Source of the DNA: Flavobacteriaceae bacterium
GTDB taxonomy: Bacteria > Bacteroidota > Bacteroidia > Flavobacteriales > Flavobacteriaceae
NCBI GenBank assembly: GCA_029243385.1
Contig: JAQWSC010000006.1
Location: 1-64,000 of the forward strand
Direction: 5' to 3'
Length of the DNA stretch: 64,000 bases
The notes below the pieces were generated by a model. That model was given only the letters and a program-made list of their open reading frames with translations. It searched no databases and had not been told where the DNA came from. Positions within the stretch are counted from its first letter, which is position 1. Each line of letters begins with the position of its first letter. Position numbers and translations under genes: made by a program. Positions 180 to 23,574 of this stretch are shown piece after piece.

Positions 180-1172
180 TTATTTCTTTAAAAACTTCTT
201 AACGGAATAACCTGGAGTTTCCAAAAAGTAAAGACCTGCATTTAGGTTGCTTACGTTAATGGACTTTCCATTGAATTCTTGAGTATGTACTTTTGCTCCT
301 GATATTGAATAAATTGAAATTTGACTACCGGTATCCAAACCTGTTATTCCAAGCTCATTTTGAACAGGATTTTTTATAATATTAAATTCCAGAATTGTGG
401 GAAACTCATTTGACAAAGTGTACCCTGACATTGTGACCTTAGAAATATTTAAATTTTCAATTGACTGTGTTGGATCTGTAATTGTCTGAGATTTCATAAA
501 GCCATAAACACCTGTAGATTTAGCGGCACTAACTAAATCATCGCTAACAAATGCTGTAGTTGATTGATATGCCGCCATTGCTGTTTCTGAACCATCAGTT
601 AAATTGAATAGTTGCCCATATATTTCGGAAGTTTGTCCATCATTTCCTAATTCCAGAGTTACTTCCAGTGCAAGATCATCCCCTTGACAATCAACTATTG
701 GTAGCTTGGGATTACCTGTTAATTTTGTGCCGAAGTTTTGAAACAACATTAAGGATCCCCCAGGATTAAATGAATTATCTTGAGTTGTCATTATATAAAT
801 AGTGTTCTTAACAGTCGGATCCCCACCATTAATGTCTGCATCACTAATAAAACCTATTTCAAATAATGCTAATGTATTTTCTGGGGCAACTGAACCAGTG
901 AAATCAAACTCAACTCTAAACTTTATTTGATCCCCTGTAACACCAATAAATGGCTTACCCCATGCGGCACGCCTGTTTGAAAATGGGGTGTATATTTTTC
1001 CTATAGAAGTGTTAACATTCCATGTATTAGCTTCGAAAGTTGAGTACCAATCTGTTTGATTATAAAGGGGACCATCAGCAAAATTTTCAGCTTCAGTAAA
1101 ATTTACTGAGAACTGAGCATTTAGTGCTGTTGCACTTAAAATTATTGTAAAGAATATGTATACATTTCTCAT
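180..1172 (-). CDS. T9SS-exported protein with a GH86-associated N-terminal-type domain
   Basis: A 330-residue secreted protein of unknown activity. Residues 1-19 form a signal peptide ending in LNAQ. Residues about 20-250 match, block by block, the N-terminal domain of the GH86 protein at 2664-5411: shared blocks include VNFT, LYNQT-W, RAAW and DCQ...ALEVTL. Residues about 255-330 are a type A T9SS sorting domain (NPVQNELGI, IYSISGAKV, GLYFLE), so the protein should cross the outer membrane and be anchored or released. No catalytic motif is visible. A beta-sandwich carbohydrate-binding module is the best guess, and galactan is the likely ligand given the neighbours. It has its own -7 box, so it may be transcribed apart from the GH86 operon. 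The function is inferred from fusion and position only. Confidence 0.8.
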   Translation of the reverse strand: MRNVYIFFTIILSATALNAQFSVNFTEAENFADGPLYNQTDWYSTFEANTWNVNTSIGKIYTPFSNRRAAWGKPFIGVTGDQIKFRVEFDFTGSVAPENTLALFEIGFISDADINGGDPTVKNTIYIMTTQDNSFNPGGSLMLFQNFGTKLTGNPKLPIVDCQGDDLALEVTLELGNDGQTSEIYGQLFNLTDGSETAMAAYQSTTAFVSDDLVSAAKSTGVYGFMKSQTITDPTQSIENLNISKVTMSGYTLSNEFPTILEFNIIKNPVQNELGITGLDTGSQISIYSISGAKVHTQEFNGKSINVSNLNAGLYFLETPGYSVKKFLKK

Positions 1173-1195
1173 AATTGTTTGTTTTAAAATTTATT

Positions 1196-1203
1196 CAAAT
1201 TTA
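1196..1203 (-). promoter_or_regulatory. Candidate -7 box (TAAATTTG) for the T9SS protein gene
   Basis: Read leftward, the octamer TAAATTTG matches the Bacteroidota -7 consensus TAnnTTTG and ends 23 bases before the ATG at 1172. The same octamer precedes the GH29 gene. No well-spaced -33 TTG is present, so this is a motif call only. Confidence 0.4.
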
Positions 1204-1257
1204 ACTTAGGTAGAAACAAATTGTAGTCACAAATGTTCTAAAGTGTTGAACAAATCG

Positions 1258-2652
1258 TCAAATCCTAGGGCTTGGGCTTTTAATAAGTTTCCATTGCTGC
1301 ATCTTGGGTGTGTGTATGGAGTTTATTTGTTCTAAAAGTTGGCGCTTTCTTTTTTCTAAAGAATCTATTTTTGGTAGTGTCTCAAAATAGCTGTCCATAC
1401 TCCTTTTGATGTAGTCATAATAGGGCTTGCCCTCAATGCGTTTAAGTTTTTTGGCTAAGTGCTTATGCTTTAGACTTATTTCTTCGGGACCTGTATAATC
1501 ATTAAGATAACTGTGTCGTATAAAGGCAACTGTACGACGCTGGTATTGTGTTTGTCGATAGGCAGTACACAAACGCTTTATTTCTTGCGCCTGTATGTAT
1601 TGCGGTGTGTTTTTATATTGGCTAAGATTAATTCCATTCTTTAAATCGTAGGCATCAAAAGTTCCTATGTGTTGATTATCAATATACAAGTCATAATTTT
1701 TATTAGGTAAGCCTTCTGCTTGAAAAAGTTGCTGGTTATACAGTTCTTTAAAAGCGGTCAATGATAATGCCTCGTTAAGATTCCTTCCAAGAGGGAACGG
1801 CAAACTCATTTCAAGAGTCTGAAAGGAAATTAAGCTGTCTGAAAACTGTGCATTTTGAAGGCTTAGGTTTTGCACACGTATTTCTTGCTCATCTTGGTTT
1901 GCATCAATAGCTATTTTAGAAACCACTACAGGCGCTTCTAGTTTTGAAATAATTTCACAAAACATGATAAAATGCCCTGTTGTTCCGGGATGCACCCTGT
2001 CGTTTCCAATAATGGTAAACAAAGAATCTTTTTTAAGTTCACGCTTCATAATACTTTTCATGGGCGTGTTTAAATCAATTACTAGTGCGTCATGTTTTTC
2101 ACCTAGTTTTTTAATGTGATTCGAGCATTCAATAAGCGCATCATTGCAGCCTAAGTTGTTTTCTTTTTCAATTTTAGAGTATTGGTCGTAAATAGAGGGC
2201 GTTAACAAAATGGGTATTATACCATTTTCGATTATTTTTTCCGCTAATAATGTAGTATTTCGCTTGTAGTTAGCTAAGGCATTAACTCTTTGTTTCAAAG
2301 TTTTATCACTTGCCTTTCCCTCGAAATACAAAGTGCGACTCACATCGTTCATACCTGTCATCAGAAACACATGTGTTGGTTTATGCTTCATCACGTCTTC
2401 TTCAAAACGAGCCAGCATACCGCTGGCGTTATCTCCAGAAATTCCGCAATTGTGAAAAGAAAGGTTCAACGATGGATGACGAGTTGCGTAAAATAGTTGT
2501 AAAAATTCATGATATTGGCCACCATGGGTTATGCTATCGCCTAGAAAACAAATAACATCGCCATTTTTAAAAAATGAGGTTTGATTTTCTTGGGCATAAA
2601 TAGTGTTGAGGTAAAAGAAAAAAAAGATATAAAAGAAAGAAAAATGACGCAC
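1258..2652 (-). CDS. SGNH/GDSL-family hydrolase, secreted
   Basis: A 464-residue protein with a signal peptide (1-21, ending in IYAQ). The SGNH fold occupies about 30-235. Block I is FLGDSITHGG with nucleophile Ser40, block III is GMND with Asn102, and block V is DRVHPG with Asp218 and His221. This points to an esterase, possibly a carbohydrate deacetylase. Residues about 240-464 add a small beta region (YDLYIDNQHIGTFDAYDL) and a basic helical tail, a layout also seen in other secreted Bacteroidota and planctomycete SGNH proteins. The start codon is GTG, chosen because the signal peptide begins there. It follows the larger GH86 gene by 11 bases, so it is co-transcribed with it. Porphyran is methylated and sulfated rather than acetylated, so the substrate is unclear. 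Confidence 0.85.
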   Translation of the reverse strand: MRHFSFFYIFFFFYLNTIYAQENQTSFFKNGDVICFLGDSITHGGQYHEFLQLFYATRHPSLNLSFHNCGISGDNASGMLARFEEDVMKHKPTHVFLMTGMNDVSRTLYFEGKASDKTLKQRVNALANYKRNTTLLAEKIIENGIIPILLTPSIYDQYSKIEKENNLGCNDALIECSNHIKKLGEKHDALVIDLNTPMKSIMKRELKKDSLFTIIGNDRVHPGTTGHFIMFCEIISKLEAPVVVSKIAIDANQDEQEIRVQNLSLQNAQFSDSLISFQTLEMSLPFPLGRNLNEALSLTAFKELYNQQLFQAEGLPNKNYDLYIDNQHIGTFDAYDLKNGINLSQYKNTPQYIQAQEIKRLCTAYRQTQYQRRTVAFIRHSYLNDYTGPEEISLKHKHLAKKLKRIEGKPYYDYIKRSMDSYFETLPKIDSLEKRKRQLLEQINSIHTPKMQQWKLIKSPSPRI

Positions 2653-2663
2653 GCTAAGTTGAT

Positions 2664-5411
2664 TTATTCAATTACAAGCTTGGCATAAAGGTTTTCTGAG
2701 CTGACTATATAAACACCAACAGCTAATTGGTCAATTTCGATGTAATTTCCGTCATAAACAGTTCGATGGATTTCTTTACCGGTTAAGTTGTAAAATCTAA
2801 CTTCTTTACCCAAATGTTTTTTATCGAGATAAACAATGCCATTCGATGGGTTTGGATAAAGTATTAATTTGTTTAGCGCTTTGGGTTCAATTAATTTTTC
2901 TAACGACAGCGCGTTATTATCGTAGGTTTCCGTAACTAAAATCAACGAACTTAAATGTCCACCTGAGTCTGGAAACGAAAGGGCCACAGAAGTTGAAGCT
3001 TGTAAACTTCCCACAGGAACATCAATCTCGATCATTCCAAAAAAGTCATCTCTGTTGGCTTGATCATACCCCTTCCAATTGGTAGGAACGCTAAGTGTTT
3101 GTCCATTAACCACTACTGTGGGTGATTTTGACTTATCGTGTTTTCTCCCAATACTCATACGTAAGGTAGCATATCCAACTAAGGACGTTGGTACATTAGA
3201 AAACGTGTATACCATGGATGAATTGGCGGTGATTGCTTGAACCGTTGATTCATTGTTATTGCTGTAATGTCGGTTCAAAATAAGTGCATTGTCATAGCTA
3301 AAAGTAGTATCGTATGTATATTCTAACACAACTGTCTCATTCACCTTTAAATTGTACTTTTCTAAGACGGACGATATTGTGTGATCTGTAAATTGTGCTT
3401 CCTCTTCAGGATTGACAATCAAGGATTTTATAAGCACATCGGATATGATCGCATTTGACAGACTTTGTATTGCTAATGAAACAGATTGGTCAAAATCATC
3501 TAGGTTATTTAGTGCTACATACAGTTTATTTCCATCTCTAAAACCTTGAACTTGAACGTCGGGATTGTTAGACTTTATTTCAATTCGATCGCCAGAAACG
3601 TTTTTCCATAGTTCGTAAAAGTAAATACGATCTGTATATTCCCAACTTGTTATTTGATCTTTTGGAACACCAAAAGGAATGGGTTTAAAGAGGACCGCTT
3701 TGTATGGTAAATTATTGTTAGCTTCTGTAATGTGCCATGTTGATTTTCCTGTGGTAAAAGGAATAACAAGCTCAGTAATATCTTGACGCTCAAACAAGCC
3801 AAAAAGCATCGCGTTTTGAGATCGTATTGATTGAATGTTGCTTATGTTGGAATAGGTTGATCCCACAATGCCCCCAAACTCAGAAATCACATGCGGTTTG
3901 ACTGCTCCCCATTTTTCATAACTATAAGATTCTATTAAATCCAAAACCGCCTCCATATTGCATCCCGATCGTTTGGTGTCTTGTCCCACTTGGTTTACTC
4001 CATCGTATAGGTGCGTTGAAAAAGCATCCATATCTGCACCTGCAATGTCCATAAACATTTTCATGTTGTCATTCCAAACAGCAAAGTTATTTTTTTCAAA
4101 AGAGGGCCAAGCTGCAGCATAACCAATGACTTTCATATTTGCTAACTCGGGTGTAGCATGAATTTTACTTCCTATTTCTTTGAATACTTGAGCCATTTCT
4201 TGTTTTACCCGATTTTCAGCAGATTCTGTCCAGTCGGGTTCTGGATAAAAGTCTCGTGCGTGAACAAAAGGCTCATTCATAGGTTCGTAAAATTCAGGTC
4301 TAAAATTGACACCTACAAAATCCTTAAAATACTCAACTACCCAATCGGAAAGGGTTGTTAAATTTATTCCTTCCTCGTAAATATTATAGGGGTGTTCGGT
4401 TCCAATATATCGGTTTACCTCTCTAATTTCATTCGTTCCAGATTTTGGGCTTGGGTATACACCGACTTGTCCTTGTTCTTGAACTGCTTTAGCTGCAGGT
4501 CCCCAAAAACCTCTTCCGTGATTAGTTGCATTGTAGTCTATAAAAAAATTAGGCTCAATATCAGAACCCCCGGTTGAATGAAGGTTGAAATACTTTCCTC
4601 TATCAAGGGTTGAAATATCACCCAAGTATCTTTTAACGGCAGGATTGATACTGATGGATGAATAAGCAGTTACAGATACTTGGGTTACGTTTACATCAGA
4701 AAGCGACGAATCGTTGCCGAGATTTGCTGAACCAAAATAAGGGTAAATGTTCGATGTAGCAGCTGCGAAAATATCCGCCTGCACTCCCACATAAGAACCT
4801 AAATTACTTTCTGTTGCATCTGTCACATTTATTAGTTTTGCAGAAATAGTAGAGCTGGAGGCATTTGCTCCAAGAATAAGAGTTACCTCGACAGCTAGAG
4901 CATCACTGGCATTTGTGTTTTGACAGTCTTGAATGGTTAAATAGGCATCGGTTGTAAGACCAGAGGCATCATTATCATCCCTTAAATGGAGAATAGAGCT
5001 TGAATAATTTGTTGGATCAACTCTTGTCGATAAATAAACTTTATTTGATGTAAAAGCGGCACTAACATCACTAGCAGTTCCAAAACCAAAATTCATCAGT
5101 GGATTGTTTTGCGCTGTGAATGTTCCCGACATATTGAAATCCACCCTAAGAGTAATTGCATCACCAATATCAGATAAGGCAAATCCTTGTTGCCAAGCTG
5201 CTCGTTTCCAATTCCCTGTAGTAGAAACCATCCCCGATTGGGTGTCAACAACCCAAGTAACTGTTTGGTTACTTGAACTCCAATTCGTTTGATTGTAAAG
5301 CGCTCCATTTGTAAACCCCTCTTGAGCAGTAAAGTTCACTACATTTTGTGCATTTGTAAAGAACGAAAAGCAGTACACAAAAATCAGTAGTTTAAAATAA
5401 TAATGTTTCAT
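2664..5411 (-). CDS. GH86 beta-agarase/porphyranase with extra N-terminal domain and T9SS signal
   Basis: A 915-residue endo-acting galactanase of family GH86, which cleaves beta-linkages in agar or porphyran by a retaining mechanism. A signal peptide (1-22) is followed by a domain at about 23-250 shared with the protein at 180-1172. The GH86 region, about 255-840, opens with RYLGDISTLDRGKYF. The likely acid/base is Glu380 in FYEPMNEPF and the likely nucleophile is Glu511 in ISEFGG. Residues about 845-915 are a T9SS sorting domain (LYPNPSNGIVYL, GVYIVSS). It should therefore act at or outside the cell surface, making oligosaccharides for the SusCD transporter. Its stop lies 11 bases before the SGNH gene and its start 4 bases after the second GH86 gene. 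Porphyran is preferred over agarose only because of the sulfatases nearby. Confidence 0.93.
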   Translation of the reverse strand: MKHYYFKLLIFVYCFSFFTNAQNVVNFTAQEGFTNGALYNQTNWSSSNQTVTWVVDTQSGMVSTTGNWKRAAWQQGFALSDIGDAITLRVDFNMSGTFTAQNNPLMNFGFGTASDVSAAFTSNKVYLSTRVDPTNYSSSILHLRDDNDASGLTTDAYLTIQDCQNTNASDALAVEVTLILGANASSSTISAKLINVTDATESNLGSYVGVQADIFAAATSNIYPYFGSANLGNDSSLSDVNVTQVSVTAYSSISINPAVKRYLGDISTLDRGKYFNLHSTGGSDIEPNFFIDYNATNHGRGFWGPAAKAVQEQGQVGVYPSPKSGTNEIREVNRYIGTEHPYNIYEEGINLTTLSDWVVEYFKDFVGVNFRPEFYEPMNEPFVHARDFYPEPDWTESAENRVKQEMAQVFKEIGSKIHATPELANMKVIGYAAAWPSFEKNNFAVWNDNMKMFMDIAGADMDAFSTHLYDGVNQVGQDTKRSGCNMEAVLDLIESYSYEKWGAVKPHVISEFGGIVGSTYSNISNIQSIRSQNAMLFGLFERQDITELVIPFTTGKSTWHITEANNNLPYKAVLFKPIPFGVPKDQITSWEYTDRIYFYELWKNVSGDRIEIKSNNPDVQVQGFRDGNKLYVALNNLDDFDQSVSLAIQSLSNAIISDVLIKSLIVNPEEEAQFTDHTISSVLEKYNLKVNETVVLEYTYDTTFSYDNALILNRHYSNNNESTVQAITANSSMVYTFSNVPTSLVGYATLRMSIGRKHDKSKSPTVVVNGQTLSVPTNWKGYDQANRDDFFGMIEIDVPVGSLQASTSVALSFPDSGGHLSSLILVTETYDNNALSLEKLIEPKALNKLILYPNPSNGIVYLDKKHLGKEVRFYNLTGKEIHRTVYDGNYIEIDQLAVGVYIVSSENLYAKLVIE

Positions 5412-5415
5412 TCAC

Positions 5416-7200
5416 TTAATATTTAACATCCAATATTAATGTGCTCAAATGACCTCCACTATCTGGAAAACTAATGTGAACATTATTATTTTCTTTAATT
5501 AGCTCGACGGGAACGGGGATTTCTATAGCACCAAAGAATTTCTTTCGATTTGCTTGATCATATCCTTTCCAATTAAACGGTACTGGGATATTGACACCAT
5601 TTATTTTAATTAACGGACGTTTGGATAAATCATGCGTTCGACCAATACTCATAGATAAACTTGCTTCAATAACATCTGATTTAACCTCATTGAAAACATA
5701 GGCTATCTTTTTATGAGCTTCTATTGGAGCAAGAAACTCTTTCGAATAATACCTAGTTTCCGTTACTTTCTTCGATAAATTAAGTGGTTTTTTTAGTGAA
5801 TATGTCAAAACTATAGTTTCTGCTACATTTAAAAAAAATTCACTTGGAATTGATGGAACTATTGTTTCGAAGTAATGTGGCAAATCGTCCTCAAACACAG
5901 TTAATGATTTTACATAGATACTTTGAACGCTATTTTCAACTCCGTTGAGTTGAAAATTAATTTTTTGTGGACTTTCAGCTAAATTATTTAACGCAATATA
6001 AAGCTGTTTGTCATGAGTAAAGGCCTGCACTTGTATGTCTGGGTTAGAGGTGGTAACAAAAACGCGTTTGCCCTTTACGTCTTTCCATAAATCATAAAAA
6101 TGAATTCGATTGGTGTACACCCAACCCGAAATTTCGCTTTTTGGAACGCCCATGTTTTCAGGACGCCAAAGAACCGCTTTGTAGGGTAAAAAATTATTCT
6201 GTTTTGTTATATGCCAACTGGCCTCATCTGTGTTAAATGGAATCGAAATTTCCAAGCGATCTTCTCTGTCCATCAGCCCAAAAATCATTGCGTTTTGTGA
6301 ACGAATGGACTGCATGTTACGGATAAGTGTAAATTCCTTTTTGACAATACCACCGTATTCCGTTATGGCATGGGGCTTCACAAAGCCCCAGCGGTTAAAG
6401 CTATAAGTTTCTATCATATCCATGATGGCTTCGTTATTGCTTCCTTGGCGCTTATTGTTTTGCCCCGCTTGATTTACTCCATCGTAGAGGTGATACGATA
6501 TGGCGTCCATCTCATTACCTGCGATATCCAAAAAGAGGCCCATATTTGTTTCCCAGTTGTTGAAGTCTTTTAACTCAAAGGAAGGCCATGCAGCTCCATA
6601 CCCCATTACTTTCATGTTTTTTAAGGTGGGTTCTGCGTGTATTTTTGCAGCAATAGCTAGATACATTTTCGACATTTCAGTTTTGACACGTAATTCAGCC
6701 TCAGGATCCCAGTCTTTTTCGCTATAAAAATCTTTTGCATGTACAAAAGGCTCATTCATGGGCTCGTACCACAATGGACGTGCCTTCTCGTCCATATTTT
6801 TAAAATATTGCACAGCCCAATCAGAAAAGCCCTCAATATCAACACCTTCTTTATATAAATTTCGCGGGTGCTCTGTAGCAACAAAGCGTTTTACAGACTT
6901 AATTTTTTTTCCTTTTTTTTCTTTTGCTTTAGGGTAAACCCCAACTTGCCCCTTTAATTTTTTTGCATCAATGCCTGGGCCATAAAAACCTCTTCCTGAT
7001 GGTGTAACATTATATTCTTCATAAAAAGATTTATGTATAGGCTTATTCGCAAATGGAGCTGAGTGAATCACAAAATACTTTGATCGATCTAACTCTGAAA
7101 CATCTCCAATAAAACGTTGTATCGAAACATCCACTGTAACCAGGTTTTCCTGACTAAAAGCTGATTGGAAACATAAAATTAGAAAAAATAAGTACTTCAA
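5416..7200 (-). CDS. GH86 beta-agarase/porphyranase without T9SS signal
   Basis: A 594-residue paralogue of the neighbouring GH86. The signal peptide (1-16, ending in FSQ) leads straight into the GH86 domain (RFIGDVSELDRSKYF). The predicted acid/base is Glu150 (WYEPMNEPF) and the nucleophile Glu281 (ITEYGG). It has neither the extra N-terminal domain nor the sorting domain, so it is probably periplasmic and would shorten imported oligosaccharides. The start is TTG at 7200: no ATG exists upstream in frame, and the signal peptide begins exactly there. It follows the glycan-binding lipoprotein gene by 27 bases and precedes the other GH86 gene by 4. The catalytic motifs are intact, so both copies should be active. 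Confidence 0.93.
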   Translation of the reverse strand: MKYLFFLILCFQSAFSQENLVTVDVSIQRFIGDVSELDRSKYFVIHSAPFANKPIHKSFYEEYNVTPSGRGFYGPGIDAKKLKGQVGVYPKAKEKKGKKIKSVKRFVATEHPRNLYKEGVDIEGFSDWAVQYFKNMDEKARPLWYEPMNEPFVHAKDFYSEKDWDPEAELRVKTEMSKMYLAIAAKIHAEPTLKNMKVMGYGAAWPSFELKDFNNWETNMGLFLDIAGNEMDAISYHLYDGVNQAGQNNKRQGSNNEAIMDMIETYSFNRWGFVKPHAITEYGGIVKKEFTLIRNMQSIRSQNAMIFGLMDREDRLEISIPFNTDEASWHITKQNNFLPYKAVLWRPENMGVPKSEISGWVYTNRIHFYDLWKDVKGKRVFVTTSNPDIQVQAFTHDKQLYIALNNLAESPQKINFQLNGVENSVQSIYVKSLTVFEDDLPHYFETIVPSIPSEFFLNVAETIVLTYSLKKPLNLSKKVTETRYYSKEFLAPIEAHKKIAYVFNEVKSDVIEASLSMSIGRTHDLSKRPLIKINGVNIPVPFNWKGYDQANRKKFFGAIEIPVPVELIKENNNVHISFPDSGGHLSTLILDVKY

Positions 7201-7227
7201 AATTTGAAATTGTTCTTTACTCGTAAA

Positions 7228-8766
7228 TCACTCTGGAGTGTAAACTTTGACATCATCGATGTAAATAACTCCCTTCTTTTGATACCTGAAAGCAACAAAA
7301 TAATTTCCAGTCTCTGGCGCTGTCCATACCTTGTTTGCCTCTTTATTAATAGTTATCCATTCCCCTCTTGGTAAATCTGACATTCCTGTCCAAAATTGGG
7401 TGCTAGGAAATGGTGCTTCAGAATAAAATATCCAGGGCCCAATAGATCCATCGGAATAAGAGGAATCAATCCAAACTTTAAATTCCAAAGTGACCTTTTG
7501 GCCTTGATCTAAATGAAAAAGAGATCCCTCATTCCAACTCCATGCTCTTGTCCATTTGCCATCTTCAGTTGCTTCCATTCGCATACTGTATAAACCAGTT
7601 GCTGCCTTTTCGTCTGTAAAGCTAATCTCACTTGATGCTAAATTATCAGATGCTGCTGACCATCCAGACCCTCCATCTTCAAACCCATAAATATTGTTGT
7701 TTGCAATGTTTTGAGGAAAATATAAACTTACCATTTGGTCATCAAACGACTCTGCTGGAATGTCGTTAACACGAGTTAAAACACCCTCACTGTCATTATA
7801 CGAAAGGTATGCTGTTTTATCACTTTTGATGTTTATCTCAGTTTCAATATCCACAATTCTGTTATCATCAGAGTTGATAGACACCTTTAATATTACATAT
7901 TCCACTCCATTTTCATCAGCCAAAGTAAAATGTGGTAGTAGATCTTCAGATGAATTTAATGGGAGGTCATAAGACAGTTGAATTACACCACTTTCATCTT
8001 CTGTAATACTTTTAATCGTTGGTGGATCAATATTTTCAATTACATTGATATAGCTTTCGAGATGTAAGGTATCTTTCGCTCCTTCTGGAAACTGACGCCA
8101 ACTGACTAGCGTTAAATCATAGACACCTATTGATGGGTAGGAAACACTAATGTTCTTAACAAGTTCGTCTTCGTCAACACTGATTCCGCCTGCTGAAGAA
8201 GGCTCACCGCTGGGCAGGGTCCATTTTCTGCGATTTGGCGCTCCCAAAGAAGCATCCTTAAAGTTAATTGTTCCACCTTCATACATCGTTATTTGCTCGG
8301 GTTTAATTTCAGAAAAACCTGATTCAATTGACGTAATTTCGAGTTTGGTTTGAATGTGATCCAAAACAGTCACGTTAAAGGTCGTGTCTAGCGTTATGGA
8401 GTCAACTTCAAAATCAGATTTTAAGTTAACTTCATAATTTCCTGGCTCAAAAAAACGAACATGGATCAAATCTAAATTTTTTGAAGTATAAATTTTTCCT
8501 TTTACCGAAGCATTTAAGTTTGGTGTTTCTCCATCCAAATTAGTTATTGTCGATGATACGGGTAACGTCCATGAACGGCTTGTCACTCCTTTGGACAAAT
8601 CGGCAAAAGAAGTCATATTTCCGCGCTCAATTCGCTTATTGCCTGACGCGACAGCAACAGCGTCAGAAAATTGATTTGCTTCGGGTGTGTCATAATCCTT
8701 TTCACAAGAAAGCACTACCACCATAACAAGAAAGAAAATCGCTGTATTGTTGATATATTTTTTCAT
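7228..8766 (-). CDS. Surface glycan-binding lipoprotein (SusE/F position), PKD-type
   Basis: A 512-residue lipoprotein lying directly after susD, where the surface glycan-binding protein of a PUL normally sits. The ATG at 8766 is preferred over one 12 codons upstream because it gives a clean lipoprotein signal with Cys about 20 residues in (VVVLSCEKDY). Two PKD-like beta domains fill about 60-260 (WTLPVSS and KWTLPSGEP cores). A third Ig-like segment follows, and a C-terminal jelly-roll of about 145 residues begins GFEDGGSGW and ends YIDDVKVY, typical of carbohydrate-binding modules. It probably captures the galactan at the surface and hands it to SusCD. The PKD domains would act as spacers. 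The ligand is inferred from the neighbours. Confidence 0.85.
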   Translation of the reverse strand: MKKYINNTAIFFLVMVVVLSCEKDYDTPEANQFSDAVAVASGNKRIERGNMTSFADLSKGVTSRSWTLPVSSTITNLDGETPNLNASVKGKIYTSKNLDLIHVRFFEPGNYEVNLKSDFEVDSITLDTTFNVTVLDHIQTKLEITSIESGFSEIKPEQITMYEGGTINFKDASLGAPNRRKWTLPSGEPSSAGGISVDEDELVKNISVSYPSIGVYDLTLVSWRQFPEGAKDTLHLESYINVIENIDPPTIKSITEDESGVIQLSYDLPLNSSEDLLPHFTLADENGVEYVILKVSINSDDNRIVDIETEINIKSDKTAYLSYNDSEGVLTRVNDIPAESFDDQMVSLYFPQNIANNNIYGFEDGGSGWSAASDNLASSEISFTDEKAATGLYSMRMEATEDGKWTRAWSWNEGSLFHLDQGQKVTLEFKVWIDSSYSDGSIGPWIFYSEAPFPSTQFWTGMSDLPRGEWITINKEANKVWTAPETGNYFVAFRYQKKGVIYIDDVKVYTPE

Positions 8767-8806
8767 CACTTGATTTTGTTTAAACTCATTTATTTTTTTC
8801 ATATTA

Positions 8807-10453
8807 TTAGTCTAAAAAGTCTGGATTTGAGTTCAATTCTGCTGCAGGAATTGGGAAATAATCATGTGCTTCTGGACTATAAACTTTTGCAGCTTCAACA
8901 AATTCTTTTATCTTTTTTAATGATCCGTGAACTGCAGAATCGTATTCGTAAAGTACTTTGCCATCTATTGTATAGGATTTAGCTGCCAATCGCTCGTATT
9001 GTTCTTTAACTTTTCCCCAACGCGTAAGGTCTTCCCAACGTATATCGTGTCCCTCAAACATAAGTTCAAGAGGGCGTTCGACCCACATGATGTGCTCCAT
9101 TAAGGAATCAGTATCATAATCTGCTTCGGTCAAAGGAAGTACTCCTGCACGAGTACGAATGGCGTTTACCATATCCAATGCTTCTGTAAAGTCGCCTGCA
9201 GTTTGTAGGAGACATTCTGCGTACAACAACATAACATCAGCCAAACGAATAACGCGCTCATTAATTCCAGAGACACTTTGATCGCTTTCAAGCGGTAGAT
9301 GCCAGTTTTGAAATTTCTTTAAATACGACGCTTCACTGTTGTTGTATGCTCCTCCTGTATTTGACGGAAGTTGATACATAGTCGTATTATCATCATCAGC
9401 GATAGCTACGGATACCGATGTCCGAATCGAGTACTGAGCCGTTCCCGTTCGTGAAGCATTAATCGGATTTGTCATATCCATGATGTCATTTTTAAAAAGC
9501 ATGGTCATGTAATAGGAAGGCATAACAGTTCGATACCCACCTCCCTGAGTTGTTGCTAAACCAATTGCTCTATTAGTGGCCTCTGAGCCCGTAGGTCCGT
9601 CTTGAGCACCAAATGAAGTTCCTGGCTTAGCATCGATAGAGAAGGCTACCTCAAAAATAGACTCACTGTTAAACTCGTGCTCCTCATCAAAATTATCGCC
9701 AATATTTGCGGTTAGTTCATACAAATTGCTGTTGATAATTTCCTTAAAATAATCTCTAGCACCGCCATAATTTTTTTCGTTTAGATGCAGCTTAGCAAGC
9801 ATGGCCGTTGCAGCACCCCAAGTGGCTCTTCCCAAGTCAGCACTATCGTCATAAGACTGTGGTAAATTTTGATATGCATACTCTAAATCTTTAAGAATAA
9901 GCGCATATACTTTACTCGCTGGAGATGGTTTTTTATAAAAATCATTTCTCATCTCAGGAACATCAGTGTGAATGATGACACTGCCACCGTTATACCCTCT
10001 GTATAGCGAATTGTAAAAGAATGCACGTAAAAACCTCGCCTCAGCTTCAATTTGCGTACTAACAGCTGAACTCATCTCTATATTGCCTAAATTCGATAAA
10101 ACTTGATTGGCCCGATAGATGCCAATATATGCATCACGCCAACGAAGACTAACAATTTCTGTGTTCTCATTATATGTAAGTGTATTTAAGCTAATGGCGT
10201 TAGCGTTCCAATTATTGGGTCGGCCAATATCAGAACGTACGGGATGTTGAATAGCTGAGGAGCCGCCCAACATTCCTTGCAATTGTAACGCAGCATAAGT
10301 CGCTATTAATCCCTTTTGGATATCGTCCTCTGATGACCAAAAAGAAGCTGCACTTAGATCATTGGGATTTTCAATGTTAAGATAATCCTCATCACAACTA
10401 GAAAAGAAAAGGATTACAACTATCAATAAAGTGTATGTGTTAAATAATTTCAT
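8807..10453 (-). CDS. susD: SusD/RagB-family outer-membrane lipoprotein
   Basis: A 548-residue SusD homologue that caps the SusC channel and binds incoming glycan. It has a lipoprotein signal (FFSSCDEDYLN), an N-terminal SusD region (ENPNDLSAASFW), the TPR-like helical core (EAEARFLRAFFYNSLYR, AMLAKLHLNEKNY) and the family's C-terminal segment (MLLYAECLLQ, RTRAGV, ERPLELMFEGHDIRWEDL). Length is normal for the family. The gene begins 17 bases after the susC stop and ends just ahead of the glycan-binding lipoprotein gene, the usual susC-susD-SGBP order. Family assignment is certain. The symbol denotes the family, not a proven starch system, and substrate specificity comes only from the neighbouring galactanases. 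Confidence 0.95.
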   Translation of the reverse strand: MKLFNTYTLLIVVILFFSSCDEDYLNIENPNDLSAASFWSSEDDIQKGLIATYAALQLQGMLGGSSAIQHPVRSDIGRPNNWNANAISLNTLTYNENTEIVSLRWRDAYIGIYRANQVLSNLGNIEMSSAVSTQIEAEARFLRAFFYNSLYRGYNGGSVIIHTDVPEMRNDFYKKPSPASKVYALILKDLEYAYQNLPQSYDDSADLGRATWGAATAMLAKLHLNEKNYGGARDYFKEIINSNLYELTANIGDNFDEEHEFNSESIFEVAFSIDAKPGTSFGAQDGPTGSEATNRAIGLATTQGGGYRTVMPSYYMTMLFKNDIMDMTNPINASRTGTAQYSIRTSVSVAIADDDNTTMYQLPSNTGGAYNNSEASYLKKFQNWHLPLESDQSVSGINERVIRLADVMLLYAECLLQTAGDFTEALDMVNAIRTRAGVLPLTEADYDTDSLMEHIMWVERPLELMFEGHDIRWEDLTRWGKVKEQYERLAAKSYTIDGKVLYEYDSAVHGSLKKIKEFVEAAKVYSPEAHDYFPIPAAELNSNPDFLD

Positions 10454-10470
10454 TTGTGGTTGTTTAATCG

Positions 10471-13400
10471 TTAGAATGAAATGGATAATCCGGTTAGGTA
10501 TGTAGCAGAAACAGGATAATTTCCTCTATCCAGTCCACCAGTAAAGGGGTTGTTGCTGCCAACTTCAGGATCGAAACCTGTATAATCAGTAAATGTAATT
10601 GGATTTTGAGCGCTTACATAGATACGTAGTTTGTCAACGCCTATTTTTTTGAGAATATCTTCTTTAAGCGAATAACCTAGAATGATGTTTCGCACACGCA
10701 AGAATGAACCATCCTCAAGGAATAAGTCTGTTGATGTTTGTATATTCGGATGTTCAATGTTCGAACGTGGTGTGGGAATATTGGACGTTGGATTAACATC
10801 CGTCCAACTATATACCAAGTCTCTATGGCGTTTCATGCTGTAAGCAAATTGTTTTGAACCGTTGTAAATCGTGCTTCCCTCTACGCCATATAACTGAACA
10901 GATAGATCAAAAGCCTTATAGTCCATATCGATAGTAAATCCATATTCAAAGTCTGGCTGGTAAGAGCCTTTAAATACTTTATCGTCTGCTGTAAGTGCTC
11001 CATCGTCATCAGTATCCACATATCGTAAATCTCCTTTTTGAGCGGTAGGAACCAACTCCTGATAAGTACTTAGCTCTGCGTCTGTTTTAATGGTTCCAGC
11101 TGTTTCATAAACCTTAAATGCTCCTACAGGCAACCCGGCCTCAAGCACCGCAACAGGTTCTGTTTGTCCAGTTCGGACTATATTTGGGTAACCATCGAAA
11201 ATAAATTCATCTTCTCTTGATAGGCTAATTACTGTATTTTCATTTTTGGTAAATGTCGCACCAAACTTGACACGAACATCACCAAAATCTTGATTTAAGT
11301 GACCTGCGATTTCGACTCCCTTGTTTTGAAGGTTTCCAACATTGGTCAGGAATCGATCATAGGTTTGTCCGCTAACAGGCGTAGAACCGGCAGAGATTGG
11401 CGGAATGATAGCCAACAACATGTCTTTTTTATCTTGCTCGTATATATCAATTACTAAACCTGCTTTGCCTCGCTGAAAGTCAAGATCGATACCATAATTT
11501 TTACTGATATTGGATTCCCACTTTAGGTTAGGATCTGCATATCCCGGTTGGGTCATACCCGGCACCAGATTGCTTCCAACACCTAATGGATAGTCAACAT
11601 TTGAAATAACAACTGGACTATAGGCGTAAGGTGGTATTCTGTCACTTCCTGTGGTTCCATAACCAAAACGTATTTTAGCCATGGATATTTTGTCTTTTAA
11701 ACTTCCAAAAAACGGCTCGTTTGATAAGTTCCATGCACCTGAAATAGATGGAAACAGTCCGTAACGTTCTGAGGTTCCAAAATTACTCGACCCGTCGCGA
11801 CGTATCACTGCCGTCAACATATACTTCCAATTATAATTATAGTTTATCCTACCTATGTATGAAATACTATTGGTTTTATTGATAAAGTGTGTGGCTACAA
11901 TTGGCTCTCCGTTGCCTAGCACAGGTGTGATATTATTAGATATGTTATCAGCACCAGTTCTATAAAATTCATAAGAGGTCTTTTCGTATGTATTTCCTAA
12001 AAGAATTTTAACATGGTGTTTATTAAAACTCTTGTTGTAATTCAAAGTAAATTCAGCAATACTTCTGTTGTTGGTGCCATCTCCAAGTCTGAGCTGGGCA
12101 TTGTAGTTACTTGCCGTGGGGTTTTCTACGCCTTCTTCATTGTAAATTAGAAAGCTTGGATTAAAAAATCGATCTTTTTTACTGTAATAAGATTTACCAA
12201 GATTTGCACCAAGTTTTAATCCGTCGATTACTTCATAATTTAAGCGTACATTTCCGTTAAATGAATTGATATTGGTTTCATTTTGTTGCTTGAGTTTACC
12301 TGCAAAATTTGAAATATTCTCAGGACTTGTACCACCAATGGTAAAGCTTTCACTGCTCGCATCTAGAGGTCTTCGATATGGCTGAAGTCGAATGGCGTCA
12401 TAAATAAGCGCATAGGGTTCTTTGTTTTGATCGCTAATATTAACACTCAGGTTTGCTTGTGCGCTAAACTTATTCTTTTTAAAATAAGTATTAGACCGTA
12501 AAGAATATTTTTCGAAGTCCGAGTTATACAAGGATCCGTCTTGACAAAAATAAGTGGCAATAACATTGTATGTGAGTCCATTTTTACCACCGCCTACACT
12601 CACTGAATGATTTTGAATAGGCGCCATATCTACCTGTAGGTCACCCATCCAGTCAGTATTATACAATAAGCCGTCTTTATTAAATTCAAGGGGATCAAAC
12701 GTGTTGGTTTCTTGGTATCGATACAATATATCGTTGATGTATAAAGACTCTGATGTATTCGCCAATGCGATTCCAGAATTTATATTTTGCATACCATAAT
12801 ACGAATCCAAGCTTACTTTCATTTCGCCTTCTTTTCCTTTTTTGGTAGTGATTAGAATCACACCTCCGGAAGCTCTGGATCCATAAATAGATGCGGATGC
12901 ACCGTCTTTTAAGACCTCTATTGACTCTATTTCTTGTGGAGTAATGTTTGGATTTTCGATATAGGTAACTCCATCAACAACGTATAAGGGTCCAGAACCA
13001 CCTTCCTGAAATGAGGTGATACCACGGATGGTTATTTGAGCATTCTCTCCTGGTGCTGAATTGCCTTGACGTACGCTAACACCTGCCATTCTTCCCTGTA
13101 AGGACGATGCGAAATCGGAGGTTGCTGTCTTAATAATATCTTCAGATTTTACAGAGGCAACTGCGCCTGTGAGTTCTCGTTTTTTCATAGTTCCATAACC
13201 GACAACGATCACTTCGTCTAACCCAGTAGTACTGGTTTCCATAACAACATTATGGGTTGTTTGGGAAACCAAAACCTTGGTTTCCATCATGCCTATATAA
13301 GTAAATACGAGCGTCAAGCCATCCGGAACTTGTATCGAATAAAAACCATCAAAATCTGTGGAAGACCCCATATCTGTCCCTTCAATTTGTATATTCACTC

Positions 13401-13557
13401 CTGGAATAGGCTGGCCATCATCAGAACCTATAACTGTTCCTCTAACAGTTGTGTTTTGTGCATGAACAGCAAAGCTTAACAAGCAAATGAATATATACAC
13501 AGTAATACTGAAAAATTTTCGGTCCGTGTAATTCTCAATCTTTATTAATTCTCTCAT
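10471..13557 (-). CDS. susC: SusC/RagA-family TonB-dependent transporter
   Basis: A 1028-residue outer-membrane transporter for oligosaccharides. A signal peptide (about 1-34, ending in VHAQ) is followed by a carboxypeptidase-regulatory-like domain (VRGTVIGSDDGQPIPGV). The TonB box and plug start come next (DEVIVVGYGTMKKRELTGAV), then the plug (IYGSRASGGVILITTKKG) and a 22-strand-type barrel that runs to the C-terminal aromatic LTGLSISF. It is complete and of normal length. It is the first gene of the leftward operon and faces the regulator gene across 203 bases, so its promoter must lie there. Partners are the SusD lipoprotein and TonB-ExbBD, which are not in this window. The cargo is predicted to be oligosaccharides made by the GH86 enzymes. 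Confidence 0.96.
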   Translation of the reverse strand: MRELIKIENYTDRKFFSITVYIFICLLSFAVHAQNTTVRGTVIGSDDGQPIPGVNIQIEGTDMGSSTDFDGFYSIQVPDGLTLVFTYIGMMETKVLVSQTTHNVVMETSTTGLDEVIVVGYGTMKKRELTGAVASVKSEDIIKTATSDFASSLQGRMAGVSVRQGNSAPGENAQITIRGITSFQEGGSGPLYVVDGVTYIENPNITPQEIESIEVLKDGASASIYGSRASGGVILITTKKGKEGEMKVSLDSYYGMQNINSGIALANTSESLYINDILYRYQETNTFDPLEFNKDGLLYNTDWMGDLQVDMAPIQNHSVSVGGGKNGLTYNVIATYFCQDGSLYNSDFEKYSLRSNTYFKKNKFSAQANLSVNISDQNKEPYALIYDAIRLQPYRRPLDASSESFTIGGTSPENISNFAGKLKQQNETNINSFNGNVRLNYEVIDGLKLGANLGKSYYSKKDRFFNPSFLIYNEEGVENPTASNYNAQLRLGDGTNNRSIAEFTLNYNKSFNKHHVKILLGNTYEKTSYEFYRTGADNISNNITPVLGNGEPIVATHFINKTNSISYIGRINYNYNWKYMLTAVIRRDGSSNFGTSERYGLFPSISGAWNLSNEPFFGSLKDKISMAKIRFGYGTTGSDRIPPYAYSPVVISNVDYPLGVGSNLVPGMTQPGYADPNLKWESNISKNYGIDLDFQRGKAGLVIDIYEQDKKDMLLAIIPPISAGSTPVSGQTYDRFLTNVGNLQNKGVEIAGHLNQDFGDVRVKFGATFTKNENTVISLSREDEFIFDGYPNIVRTGQTEPVAVLEAGLPVGAFKVYETAGTIKTDAELSTYQELVPTAQKGDLRYVDTDDDGALTADDKVFKGSYQPDFEYGFTIDMDYKAFDLSVQLYGVEGSTIYNGSKQFAYSMKRHRDLVYSWTDVNPTSNIPTPRSNIEHPNIQTSTDLFLEDGSFLRVRNIILGYSLKEDILKKIGVDKLRIYVSAQNPITFTDYTGFDPEVGSNNPFTGGLDRGNYPVSATYLTGLSISF

Positions 13558-13760: not shown

Positions 13761-16700
13761 ATGAAAAAGGTAACCGGTTGTTTTTTTTATTATATCTTAT
13801 TTGTTGCTTTCATAGGTTACAGTCAATATGAAACATACATTTTTAAGAATTTTACTGCTAAAGATGGTCTTTCACAACACGATATTAATTGCATCACACA
13901 AGACAATGAGGGGTTTTTGTGGTTTGGCACCAATAATGGACTGAACAAATTTGACGGATACAGTTTTAACGTATTTAAGCCCATCAATGGAAATGACACC
14001 TCTTTATTAGGCAGAATAGTACAAGACATCAAAACAGACTCGTTTGGAAACTTATGGATCGCAACATTAGACGGAGGACTAAACATGTATAATTCAAAAA
14101 CAGAGCGCTTTACAAGTTTTGACTCCGTCATTCCACAGATGGGTAGCTATGCTAACAAAATTACAATTAGTAGCGATGGTGTATTGTGGGTTCAATTCAA
14201 ATCCAAAGTTTGCTATGCTATAATCAAAGAAAATGTTGATGAAATGGAGTTTGTCCCACTAAAGAATGTGGATAAGTCAATTAAAGAAGGGAGTGTAAAG
14301 AGAATTTACAACAAAAACAAAATCGTTTTTTACCAAACCAATCAAGACACTTATGCTTTAAAATACACCCTAACGGAATCACGCATACAAGACATTTCTT
14401 TTCAGCTGCACAAGGACAACTATTTTTTATCACAAATAGAAGGTGCTAATGGCTCCAAATGGATTTTGAAAGAAAGCAATATAAGCTACCAACATAAAGG
14501 TTTGAAAATAGCTGTTTCAGCTACCGTAACCGATGAAGTCGCCACAATTGATGCAAAGGGTGCACTTTGGTGTATAATTGAAGATAGACTATCTTCAGTA
14601 ACATTAGATAAAGGAATGCTCCGTATAGACACCATTGATTTTGAAAATCTAGATTTTTTAACTCTTAAAAATAACTCTGTAAAATCTATTTTTTTGGATA
14701 AAACCGGTAATCTTTGGGTTGGTACCAACGGAGGAGGTATATACAAAAAAACAAACAATGTATTTGATTTTGGTCACTTTGACAAAGACAGCTCTCCCAA
14801 TAGTTTGGGTGGAAATAAAATTAGGAGTTTGCACGAAGATCAATTTGGAAATCTATGGATAGGAACAGAAGGAGGTGGGCTCAGTTTTTTAAATCGCAAG
14901 AACAAGAAATACGACTTTTTTAATGTGTTTACTTCCTCCAAAGATAATCGTGGACTGAGTTCAAAGAAAGTTTTTTCTATTTCCGAAAATATTGTTGATA
15001 GTAATAATTCTACACTCTGGTTTTCAACCGAAAATGGAGGGCTAAACATGCTTCAAGTAAATCGAAATGCTTCACCTAAATCATTTCGATTCACAAAATA
15101 CAACAAGCCCACTAAAGATGGAAGCAGTGTTTTTTACAGAGCTATTCACTCTATTTTGGGAGAAGAAAAGAATCAACTCTGGATTGGTTATTATGGCTAT
15201 GGTTTGGGCTTGGCTAAATGGACCGGTGATGGGAAAAATATAAAATTTACCTTTATAGATTCACCAAACGAAAACAAGCAATTATCGGGAAAGATAATTC
15301 GTGATATTTACAGAGATAGTTATGGGGTTTTGTGGTTGTCAACTAACAATGGCTTAAACAAACTGGATGAAAACAGCACAGATATTTCTAAAAGTACTTT
15401 TGTTTCCTATCAGCACGACCCAAAAGATATAACCAGTATAGGAAGCAACTATACCTTGCAAATTTTTGAAAGTGAAGACAAAACGCTTTGGATTGGAACA
15501 ATCGGGGGTGGACTCAACAAAATGTTACGTACTGCAGACGGGTCGGTTATAGGGTTTAAGCGCTACAATCGACAAAATTCTCTTTTCCCTGACGATGTTA
15601 TCAATTCCATTACAGAAGACAACAAAGGTGTTTTATGGGTAGGCACTAATAATGGCCTAATTGCATTTAATCCAAAAAACGAAACCTACAAAACCTACGC
15701 AGTTAGCGGATTGCAAAATCCAGAAATGAGTGAAATTTCGGCACTTAAAAGAAATAACGGAGAACTGATCTTTGGTGGAATCAATGGAATAAATGTATTC
15801 ACTCCAAACAATAACGCCTATATTGACATCGCACCAGCAACCGTACTAACAAGGCTAAATGTCATGTACGAACCCATAAGACCACTTGAATCCATCGATG
15901 GCAAAGTGCACTTAGAAAGCAGTATTACACATTCCGAACATCTTTTTTTAGATTCGAACTTAAACAACTTTTCATTAAGTTTTTCTGCACTTCATTTTGA
16001 CAATCCATCACTTAATAAATACAAGTACAAACTCGAAGGATTCGACAAAGAATGGATTGAGACCTCTTCAGACTTAAGAATTGCCAATTATACCAACATA
16101 CCAGCTGGTGATTATGTGTTTGATGTTTATGGAAGTAACGACAATGGAACTTGGTCAAGCGAACCTGCATCATTAAAGGTTACCGTATTTCCACCATGGT
16201 ATAGCACAGCCTATGCCAAAATACTTTACGTTATTTTATTTTTTATTGTGCTATTTCTTTCTGGTCAGTATACCCTTATCGAAATCCGGCGAAAGCGTAA
16301 ATTAGAGTTTGACCGGCTTGAAAAAGAAAAGGAAAAAGAATTAAATACAGCAAAACTCGAATTCTTTACCAACATATCGCATGAATTGCGCTCACCACTT
16401 ACGCTTATTCTTGGACCCGTCGAAAAACTCATTAATAAAGTAGATTCGCTTAAAAAAGAAGATCGTTTGAAATTATACTCGACAATTCAACGAAATGCAG
16501 ACTATCTTCTCAAGCTTACCAAACAACTCTTGGATTTTAGGAAACTAGAACAAGGAAAAACGCAGCTCGCTTGTGCACACATAAATATCATAGGCAGTGT
16601 TGAGAAAATAACTAGTCAATTTTATCCATTAGCAGACAAAAAGAATATATCGATTGAGTATGATTTTCCTAAAGAAAAAATATTTGCATGGATTGATATA

Positions 16701-17921
16701 AATAAACTAGAAAAAATTGTGCATAATATATTGTCGAACGCTGTAAAATTTACCCCTATAAAAGGAAAAATAAGTATTAAAGTAGTTTCCAAAAATGCTA
16801 GCGAAAACTACCCTGAAGGACATGTAGCCATAGGTGTTACAGACAACGGCTTGGGAATTAATTCAAAAGATTTAAAAAATATTTTTACACGCTTTTATCA
16901 GGCCGATAATCAACATAAAAGGAATCAAGGGGTTGGTATAGGATTGTCCTTTTCACAAAGTTTAGCAAAAATTCACGGTGGAAAAATACGCGTTAAAAGC
17001 AAGCCAGGAGAAGGGAGCTCATTTACACTTGAATTACCCTTGGGTGCTGCGCACTTATCATCCGAGCAAATGATCGACAACAAAAAACTTGTCTTAACTA
17101 CTTTAGACATCCCTGCACAAGAGGTGGAGCCCAAATATGAAATTGTTTCTTATGAAAACAGCGACAAACCTACACTTCTAATTATTGAAGATAATCTTGA
17201 AATAAACCACTATATCGCTACTGAACTAAGCGATAAGTATGCTGTTATAAGTTGTATAGAAGGGAGTAAAGGGCTTGAAGTCGCACGAGAAAAATATCCG
17301 GATATTATCATTAGCGATATTATGATGCCAGGAATGGATGGAATTGAAGTCTGTCGGGAAGTAAAAAATGACGTGAGTACAAATCATATTCCGTTTATCT
17401 TACTTTCTGCGAAAACAACAAATGAGTCTCGAGTTGAGGGACTCCAAGCGGGTGCAGATGTTTATTTGATAAAGCCATTTAATATGGACGTCTTAAAAAT
17501 GCAAATAAATTCATTACTTGAAAACAGAAAAAGAATTCACGAAGAGTTTAAAAAAGCTCCTTTTGAACCCAATTTAGTGGATGTTATTGGTGTCGAAGAA
17601 CAATTTGTTCAGAAAGTTATTTTGGAAATAGAGCGTAATATGGACAATTCATCCTTTACGACTAAGGAGCTTGCTGAAAATATAGGAATGAGTAGAACAA
17701 CTTTTTACAACAAGACCAAATCAATAACTGGGTTAAAACCCACTGAATTTGTCCGAAACTATAGACTCAAAATCGCTGCGCAATATTTAGAAAAAGGGTT
17801 TAGCGCCAAAGAAAGTATGCACAAAACAGGATTTAATACTGCTGGATACTTTACGCAGTCATTCAAGGCTTTATACAATATGACCCCTTCTGAGTATACC
17901 ACCAAGTTTAAAAGCGCTTAA
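13761..17921 (+). CDS. Hybrid two-component system sensor/AraC regulator (HTCS)
   Basis: A 1386-residue membrane regulator that joins sensor kinase, receiver and DNA-binding parts. In order: signal peptide (1-21); two periplasmic propellers of Reg_prop repeats (DGLSQHDINCITQDNEGFLW, then many LWIGT units) to about 720; a Y_Y_Y domain (KYKYKLEGFDKEW); one membrane span near 815-835; HisKA with His874 (ISHELRSPL); HATPase with DNGLGI and GVGIGL boxes; a receiver with Asp1186 (ISDIMMPGMDG); and a C-terminal AraC-type helix-turn-helix (FTTKELAENIGMSRTTFYNK). Such proteins sense a periplasmic oligosaccharide and switch on the local PUL. It is transcribed away from susC and is probably the controller of both leftward operons. 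Its stop shares a TTAA with the GH2 stop. All key residues are intact. Confidence 0.96.
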   Translation: MKKVTGCFFYYILFVAFIGYSQYETYIFKNFTAKDGLSQHDINCITQDNEGFLWFGTNNGLNKFDGYSFNVFKPINGNDTSLLGRIVQDIKTDSFGNLWIATLDGGLNMYNSKTERFTSFDSVIPQMGSYANKITISSDGVLWVQFKSKVCYAIIKENVDEMEFVPLKNVDKSIKEGSVKRIYNKNKIVFYQTNQDTYALKYTLTESRIQDISFQLHKDNYFLSQIEGANGSKWILKESNISYQHKGLKIAVSATVTDEVATIDAKGALWCIIEDRLSSVTLDKGMLRIDTIDFENLDFLTLKNNSVKSIFLDKTGNLWVGTNGGGIYKKTNNVFDFGHFDKDSSPNSLGGNKIRSLHEDQFGNLWIGTEGGGLSFLNRKNKKYDFFNVFTSSKDNRGLSSKKVFSISENIVDSNNSTLWFSTENGGLNMLQVNRNASPKSFRFTKYNKPTKDGSSVFYRAIHSILGEEKNQLWIGYYGYGLGLAKWTGDGKNIKFTFIDSPNENKQLSGKIIRDIYRDSYGVLWLSTNNGLNKLDENSTDISKSTFVSYQHDPKDITSIGSNYTLQIFESEDKTLWIGTIGGGLNKMLRTADGSVIGFKRYNRQNSLFPDDVINSITEDNKGVLWVGTNNGLIAFNPKNETYKTYAVSGLQNPEMSEISALKRNNGELIFGGINGINVFTPNNNAYIDIAPATVLTRLNVMYEPIRPLESIDGKVHLESSITHSEHLFLDSNLNNFSLSFSALHFDNPSLNKYKYKLEGFDKEWIETSSDLRIANYTNIPAGDYVFDVYGSNDNGTWSSEPASLKVTVFPPWYSTAYAKILYVILFFIVLFLSGQYTLIEIRRKRKLEFDRLEKEKEKELNTAKLEFFTNISHELRSPLTLILGPVEKLINKVDSLKKEDRLKLYSTIQRNADYLLKLTKQLLDFRKLEQGKTQLACAHINIIGSVEKITSQFYPLADKKNISIEYDFPKEKIFAWIDINKLEKIVHNILSNAVKFTPIKGKISIKVVSKNASENYPEGHVAIGVTDNGLGINSKDLKNIFTRFYQADNQHKRNQGVGIGLSFSQSLAKIHGGKIRVKSKPGEGSSFTLELPLGAAHLSSEQMIDNKKLVLTTLDIPAQEVEPKYEIVSYENSDKPTLLIIEDNLEINHYIATELSDKYAVISCIEGSKGLEVAREKYPDIIISDIMMPGMDGIEVCREVKNDVSTNHIPFILLSAKTTNESRVEGLQAGADVYLIKPFNMDVLKMQINSLLENRKRIHEEFKKAPFEPNLVDVIGVEEQFVQKVILEIERNMDNSSFTTKELAENIGMSRTTFYNKTKSITGLKPTEFVRNYRLKIAAQYLEKGFSAKESMHKTGFNTAGYFTQSFKALYNMTPSEYTTKFKSA

Positions 17922-20401: not shown

Positions 20402-20422
20402 ATATAAACTCGTATTGGTTAA

Positions 20423-23564: not shown

Positions 23565-23574
23565 GAATTTGTAT

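Follow-up and report, generated by a model that had tools for sequence, protein, structure and literature searches.

Why should one run of genes encode the same domain twice, once fused to a polysaccharide-degrading enzyme and once as a protein of its own? The question arises at the start of contig JAQWSC010000006.1 of a Flavobacteriaceae bacterium (assembly GCA_029243385.1; 1.69 Mb in 15 contigs, 99% complete), of which the first 64,000 nucleotides, here called the window, were analysed. The N-terminal part of a 915-residue enzyme of glycoside hydrolase family 86 (GH86) is related to a separate 330-residue protein, and both carry sorting tails of the type IX secretion system (T9SS). The answer that we favour, on balance, is that the two proteins have in common a galactan-binding module, non-catalytic and of the L-type (legume) lectin fold, which is used both in cis on the enzyme and as a free surface protein. 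The observations underlying this reading are the homology of the two copies, their T9SS tails, the predicted fold and a conserved gene order; the binding itself we infer.

Two homologous modules and their predicted fold

Both genes lie on the minus strand, the plus strand being stop-rich over the same region (Table 1). Aligned over their full lengths by BLASTP, the two proteins score 119 bits (E = 7e-34) with 32% identity over 311 columns. The modules alone also give 119 bits (34% identity over 242 columns), whereas 2,000 shuffled versions of the fused module reached 30.4 bits at most. Residues 20–250 of the enzyme and 18–251 of the free protein are homologous, and the whole-length kinship drawn by an earlier note on this DNA stands. 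The motifs to which it pointed (VNFT, LYNQT-W, RAAW and DCQ...EVTL) are present in a two-row alignment of the window modules, which are 36% identical there. Its assignments of the flanking parts hold equally: the type A Por_Secre_tail matches of both proteins exceed the Pfam cut-off, and the large enzyme is a GH86, matching Porphyrn_cat_1, BPA_C and the β-porphyranase BpGH86A (4aw7, E = 1.3e-143). When the genome was searched with a profile, hits being accepted to E = 5, no third copy of the module was found, only the two in the window.

In the window GH86 the module, as delimited by a 13-row profile (A3) that includes both window copies, ends at residue 250, and the match to BpGH86A begins at residue 254. 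The module is therefore an added N-terminal unit; BpGH86A resembles the window enzyme in its catalytic part, and no counterpart of the module is aligned. The module is also N-terminal to GH86 in three stretches from relatives (L012, L013 and L014; genomes and stretches are given as G and L numbers). In all four cases it forms one uninterrupted domain attached to a carbohydrate-active enzyme, as is expected of a carbohydrate-binding module (CBM).

The fold was predicted with AlphaFold, using one model per copy and eight sequences for each. Both copies are predicted to be all-β sandwiches with the legume-lectin fold, in agreement with the β-sandwich for which the earlier note had proposed structure prediction as a check. 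Of the five models computed for the free copy two scored poorly (57 and 56), and in the model of the fused copy residues 22–31 fall below a pLDDT of 50. Foldseek takes the free copy to legume lectins with E = 1.3e-9. Using VIA-align the predicted models align with legume lectins from first to last residue. The free copy has Z = 16.5 and a root-mean-square deviation of 3.1 Å over 189 aligned residues; the values for the fused copy are Z = 16.0 and 3.8 Å over 197. Soybean agglutinin (2sba) and Griffonia isolectin B4 (1gnz) share the whole-length fold of the predicted models (Z = 16.3 free, 16.0 fused). Several of the matched legume lectins were solved with galactose or N-acetylgalactosamine, according to their structure titles.

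The likeness has its limits, and several points weigh against a lectin-type module. Identity in the structural alignments with legume lectins is 7 to 16%, and the TM-scores of the free copy against them are only ~0.5–0.6. The concanavalin A-like fold class is also used by enzymes and by non-binding domains; a viral structure library returned looser concanavalin A-like models, two of the matches being named alginate lyase. Comparison of the module with eight bacterial L-type lectin domains by hhalign gave a probability of 0.8%, and thus no sequence-profile kinship, with four of the eight domains scoring below their own family cut-off. Lastly, one strand of legume lectins carries two metal ligands beside the sugar site. 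The matching strand, taken as equivalent by strand order, contains no Asp or Glu in either window copy (residues 106–113 of the free and 104–111 of the fused copy). On this placement both copies probably lack the metal-supported sugar site of classical legume lectins, together with its acids.

Relation to named families

Searches of Pfam, NCBIfam and the PDB sequence set with the module gave no match of note, returning only the T9SS tail and chance rows. The 13-row profile found none among PDB chain sequences at E up to 10, and the 13 members scanned against Pfam matched two chance families only. The domain is thus without a name as a known module in these sets, whose coverage of CBM families is incomplete for Pfam and the PDB sequences, and to that extent the earlier note was right not to recognize it. 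PF18483 gave nothing in the window genome at E = 1e-5, and tblastn of the free protein against plasmids gave no match. Titles and the beginnings of abstracts on porphyran, GH86, CBMs and lectin-like proteins, a sample with few subscription journals, contain no description of the module.

The alternative that survives best is that the module belongs to a CBM family already registered, such as CBM99 or CBM101, in which case its role would be the same and would not be new. As listed in a review table (PMC11122601), CBM99 binds porphyran and its fold is unknown, and CBM101 is an agarose-binding β-sandwich; compared by description only, both share the expected ligand class of the module, and their function and habitat would fit. 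The empty searches of PDB chains and Pfam stand on the other side, an argument weakened by the CBM families that those sets lack. We consider prior registration rather unlikely, but it is the main threat to the novelty of the module.

An accessory module on GH86 has a parallel in Microbulbifer HZ11, which has CBM6-bearing GH86 and GH16 enzymes (PMC11678492); the module there is a different one, the window GH86 having no Pfam CBM match. A title in the reference list of that paper names a porphyran-binding CBM16.

Relatives and their gene neighbourhoods

The module occurs in 16 copies in 12 genomes and, among the genomes searched, is seen only in Flavobacteriales. Two candidates were dropped before this count, a partial match in G180 C16 (E = 4.5e-4) and one in G246 C6 with seven stops in frame (E = 0.022); the contig scan confirmed four of six candidate stretches (L012–L015). 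Five copies are fused, four of them to GH86 and one within an 861-residue T9SS protein of G341 (L027:7039-9621), which has an Ig-like domain besides the module and matches no catalytic family of Pfam. Ten are free and have a T9SS tail (window, L013, L014, L015, G341, G036, G072, G145, G084 and G237), and the copy of G429 is open-ended, running off its contig. Outside the window, the tails of eight of the nine free copies lie above the 27-bit cut-off, that of L013 scoring 23.3 bits; the tail of the L014 GH86 scores 26.8 bits.

The pair of fused and free copies recurs in L013 and L014, where the gene order matches that of the window and a GDSL gene likewise separates the two, while the contig of L012 is too short to show whether a free partner is present. 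The corresponding locus of G341 has a GH86 that lacks the module, and the free gene is retained after the GDSL gene. The GDSL gene holds the same position in L013, L014 and G341 as in the window, and all three counterparts match Pfam too. The free copies of the window and L014 are 89% identical and form a pair at 100/100 in a tree of 14 modules, from which G084 and G237 were left out; the fork that joins them with the fused copies has support of just 88/95. The free copy of L013 (14174-15145) occupies the same syntenic slot and is 26% identical to that of the window. It groups in the tree with G429 (99/98), on which basis the free slot may have been swapped between lineages or may evolve fast. 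Downstream of the free gene in G341 (L026 9556-17192) are genes for a sulfatase, an MFS transporter, a short-chain dehydrogenase and an amidohydrolase, and a like order is seen by eye in L013 and L014; that they serve uptake and oxidation of L-galactose is a guess.

Other copies also lie near enzymes that look suited to galactan breakdown. In L015 (Mariniflexile maritimum, G134) the free gene is ~200 bases from a GH86 without an N-terminal module match, and near a GH16 whose nearest known relatives are β-agarases. In G036, G145 and G084 the module is found in stretches with GH16 enzymes and sulfatases. The GH16 enzymes of G145 and G084 were searched and are nearest to 9ijc, an unnamed GH16, so that a galactan substrate for these two loci is tentative. 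The copy of G429 adjoins a GH29 and a sulfatase. Nine of the 11 free or open-ended copies are therefore in loci of galactan type (five near GH86, three with GH16 and sulfatases, one with GH29 and a sulfatase), a class judged from gene content and firmest for the five with GH86.

These neighbourhoods bear on a second alternative, that the module binds some other ligand, such as a neutral hemicellulose, the surface polysaccharide of the cell itself or algal glycans in general, and that its link with galactan loci is a loose one. Three copies argue for this and against galactan. A GH10 gene lies 1.9 kb, and a GH43 gene ~5.5 kb, from the gene of the 861-residue G341 protein. The free copies of G072 and G237 adjoin transketolase and ATP synthase genes, and no glycoside hydrolase or sulfatase was found among eight Pfam-scanned neighbours of each, the remaining neighbours being read by eye. 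Against another ligand is the location of the nine copies in galactan-type loci, which include the free copies closest to that of the window, and we regard this explanation as unlikely. The earlier proposal of a new galactan-binding module used in cis and free therefore survives in part: it is favoured by the lack of a name in Pfam, NCBIfam and the PDB, by the β-sandwich models, by the pair in two further genomes and by the nine loci, but not by the relatives in G072, G237 and the 861-residue protein, which lie outside such loci. The sequence family is small and travels mostly with what look like red-algal galactan loci. Also near the free copy of G072 (L028 18520-19722) is a gene for an HD-domain protein with a Pycsar-effector transmembrane domain, which is unrelated to the module.

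How far the module accompanies GH86 in general was assessed in 397 genomes of the family, of which 20 have BPA_C, seven have the module (profile A2) and four have both. BPA_C is present in four of the seven genomes with the module and in 16 of the other 390 (Fisher p = 1.5e-4, or 1.7e-3 once the genome of the window is removed, relatedness being ignored in both). A2 counts are used throughout this comparison, and the module and BPA_C draws (397 genomes and 237 genera each) are treated as the same. Seven in 397 is an underestimate, since the wider profile A3 adds G237 and G084 among 16 genomes re-searched. In a draw of 395 genomes from the order, A3 finds the genome of the window and G429; in a draw of 395 from the phylum it finds that of the window only, the listed misses being genomes already in the order draw.

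The module was not found, at E up to 0.1, near any of the 38 BPA_C places of the 16 other GH86-bearing genomes, as covered by 35 stretches of up to 20 kb each, several of them cut by contig ends; at three of these places the BPA_C match is weak (E ~1e-9 to 1e-8), and the gene there is perhaps not a GH86. G237 and G084, which are among these 16 genomes, carry a copy elsewhere. A role as a general partner of GH86 is ruled out by this absence: 16 of the 20 GH86-bearing family genomes have no module near GH86, which also weighs against the favoured reading. The earlier note had set absence from other GH86 loci as a point against its proposal. Such absence is what is seen in these 16 genomes, but the pair does recur in L013 and L014. 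The module is an option of some lineages and not part of general GH86 biology.

A third alternative is that the module does not touch sugar at all and serves as a structural spacer or for protein docking, bringing the GH86, the free protein and SusC/SusD together on the cell surface. The most conserved positions do look structural, Trp25, Gly63 and Ser165 being invariant in all 13 members and Gly90, Phe91 and Gly159 being present in 12, and the second GH86 of the locus is without the module. This is opposed by the lectin-type fold that runs along the whole length of the predicted models, and by the single free copies of G036, G145, G134 and G084, which have no fused partner; we think a purely structural function distinctly unlikely. 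Finally, the free protein might be catalytic, or a decayed descendant of an enzyme, within the concanavalin A-like class to which GH16 and alginate lyases belong. The enzymes in that class and the two viral-library matches favour this, yet it is highly improbable: the 13 members share no fully conserved Asp, Glu or His (the best acid column, Asp64, has nine), which speaks against a shared active site, and the module profile has no kinship to five GH16 enzymes of the relatives' loci (0.1%).

The locus and a proposed role for the two copies

The galactan-binding reading is set in a locus whose first part (180-13557) is a run of seven genes on one strand with intergenic gaps of 4 to 85 bases. In order these encode the free module protein, the GDSL hydrolase, the GH86 with the module, a GH86 without it, a putative surface protein, SusD and SusC. 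The role of the surface protein is assigned by position, its match to CBM_4_9 being below threshold. The contig ends at the free gene; in L014 an alpha/beta-hydrolase gene lies beyond it.

Table 1. Features of the window that bear on the module and its locus
Feature	Position	Strand	Basis
Free module protein gene	180..1172	-	Open reading frame, 330 aa; last gene before contig end (contig start = window base 1)
T9SS type A sorting tail, free protein	216..371	-	Pfam Por_Secre_tail, E 5.6e-8
Free lectin-like module copy, residues 18-251 of the 330-aa protein	420..1121	-	Profile A3, 276.6 bits (copy is one of the 13 A3 rows); AlphaFold pLDDT 82.4, pTM 0.86
GDSL/SGNH hydrolase gene, between the two module copies	1258..2652	-	Pfam Lipase_GDSL_2, E 3.4e-15
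GH86 with module, 915 aa	2664..5411	-	Open reading frame and Pfam
T9SS type A sorting tail, GH86	2691..2861	-	Pfam Por_Secre_tail, E 1.1e-6
GH86 catalytic part, residues 254-830, nearest BpGH86A β-porphyranase	2922..4652	-	4aw7, E 1.3e-143; Pfam Porphyrn_cat_1 and BPA_C
Fused module copy, N-terminus of GH86, residues 20-250	4662..5354	-	Profile A3, 272.8 bits (also an A3 row); AlphaFold pLDDT 79.2, pTM 0.85
Second GH86, without module and without T9SS tail match	5416..7200	-	Pfam; 4aw7, E 1.1e-134
Putative surface glycan-binding protein, SusD, SusC	7228..13557	-	Pfam SusD_RagB and Plug domains
Hybrid two-component regulator, oriented away from the seven-gene run	13761..17921	+	Pfam Reg_prop, HATPase_c, Response_reg, HTH_18
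GH2, two sulfatases, GH29 (remainder of locus)	17918..24942	-	Pfam

The catalytic part of the module-bearing GH86 matches 4aw7 with E = 1.3e-143, compared with 3.3e-86 for the agarase 8h97 and 2.5e-70 for the GH86 chain 5ta1, which is presumably the gut agarase of the paper cited next. That paper describes a gut GH86 enzyme as an agarase and BpGH86A (4AW7) as a porphyranase (PMC5849685). On these scores the enzyme appears nearest to a characterized porphyranase. Judging from gene content, porphyran would be the likeliest substrate of the locus, because the porphyran locus of Bacteroides plebeius has GH2, GH16, GH29 and an L-galactose-6-sulfate sulfatase (PMC12316285). The GDSL/SGNH hydrolase might cleave a galactan ester, which is a guess. 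Beyond the locus, the window encodes at 25452-27149 a 565-residue protein whose sole Pfam match at a threshold of E = 1e-5 is a 31-residue MopE-type motif; it adjoins a 233-residue protein with a T9SS tail.

If the module binds galactan, we infer that its ligand would be porphyran or the agarose segments of porphyran, and that the two copies would divide the labour between them. The fused copy would hold the T9SS-exported GH86 endo-enzyme on its polymer. The free copy, exported alone, would capture or tether the same polymer beside SusC/SusD. A more far-reaching proposal is offered tentatively, and with more doubt than confidence: that these modules form an unnamed, metal-independent family with the L-type lectin fold for sulfated red-algal galactans, fused to a GH86 porphyranase and also exported by the T9SS as a stand-alone lectin, so that bacteria would have turned the legume-lectin fold independently to the binding of seaweed galactans.

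The accessory role of the module is of an ordinary kind, and its interest lies mainly in the paired fused and free use and in the fold. The retention of enzymes on seaweed cell walls is determined by accessory modules, and to our knowledge few are known for porphyran, CBM99 and a CBM16 among them. With an enzyme-bound and a free copy in a single gene run, the locus would allow binding in cis to be compared readily with that of a free protein on a single polymer. Should the module prove to bind, and should its family be unregistered, it would add a lectin-fold binder for sulfated galactans and a probe for red-algal polysaccharides.

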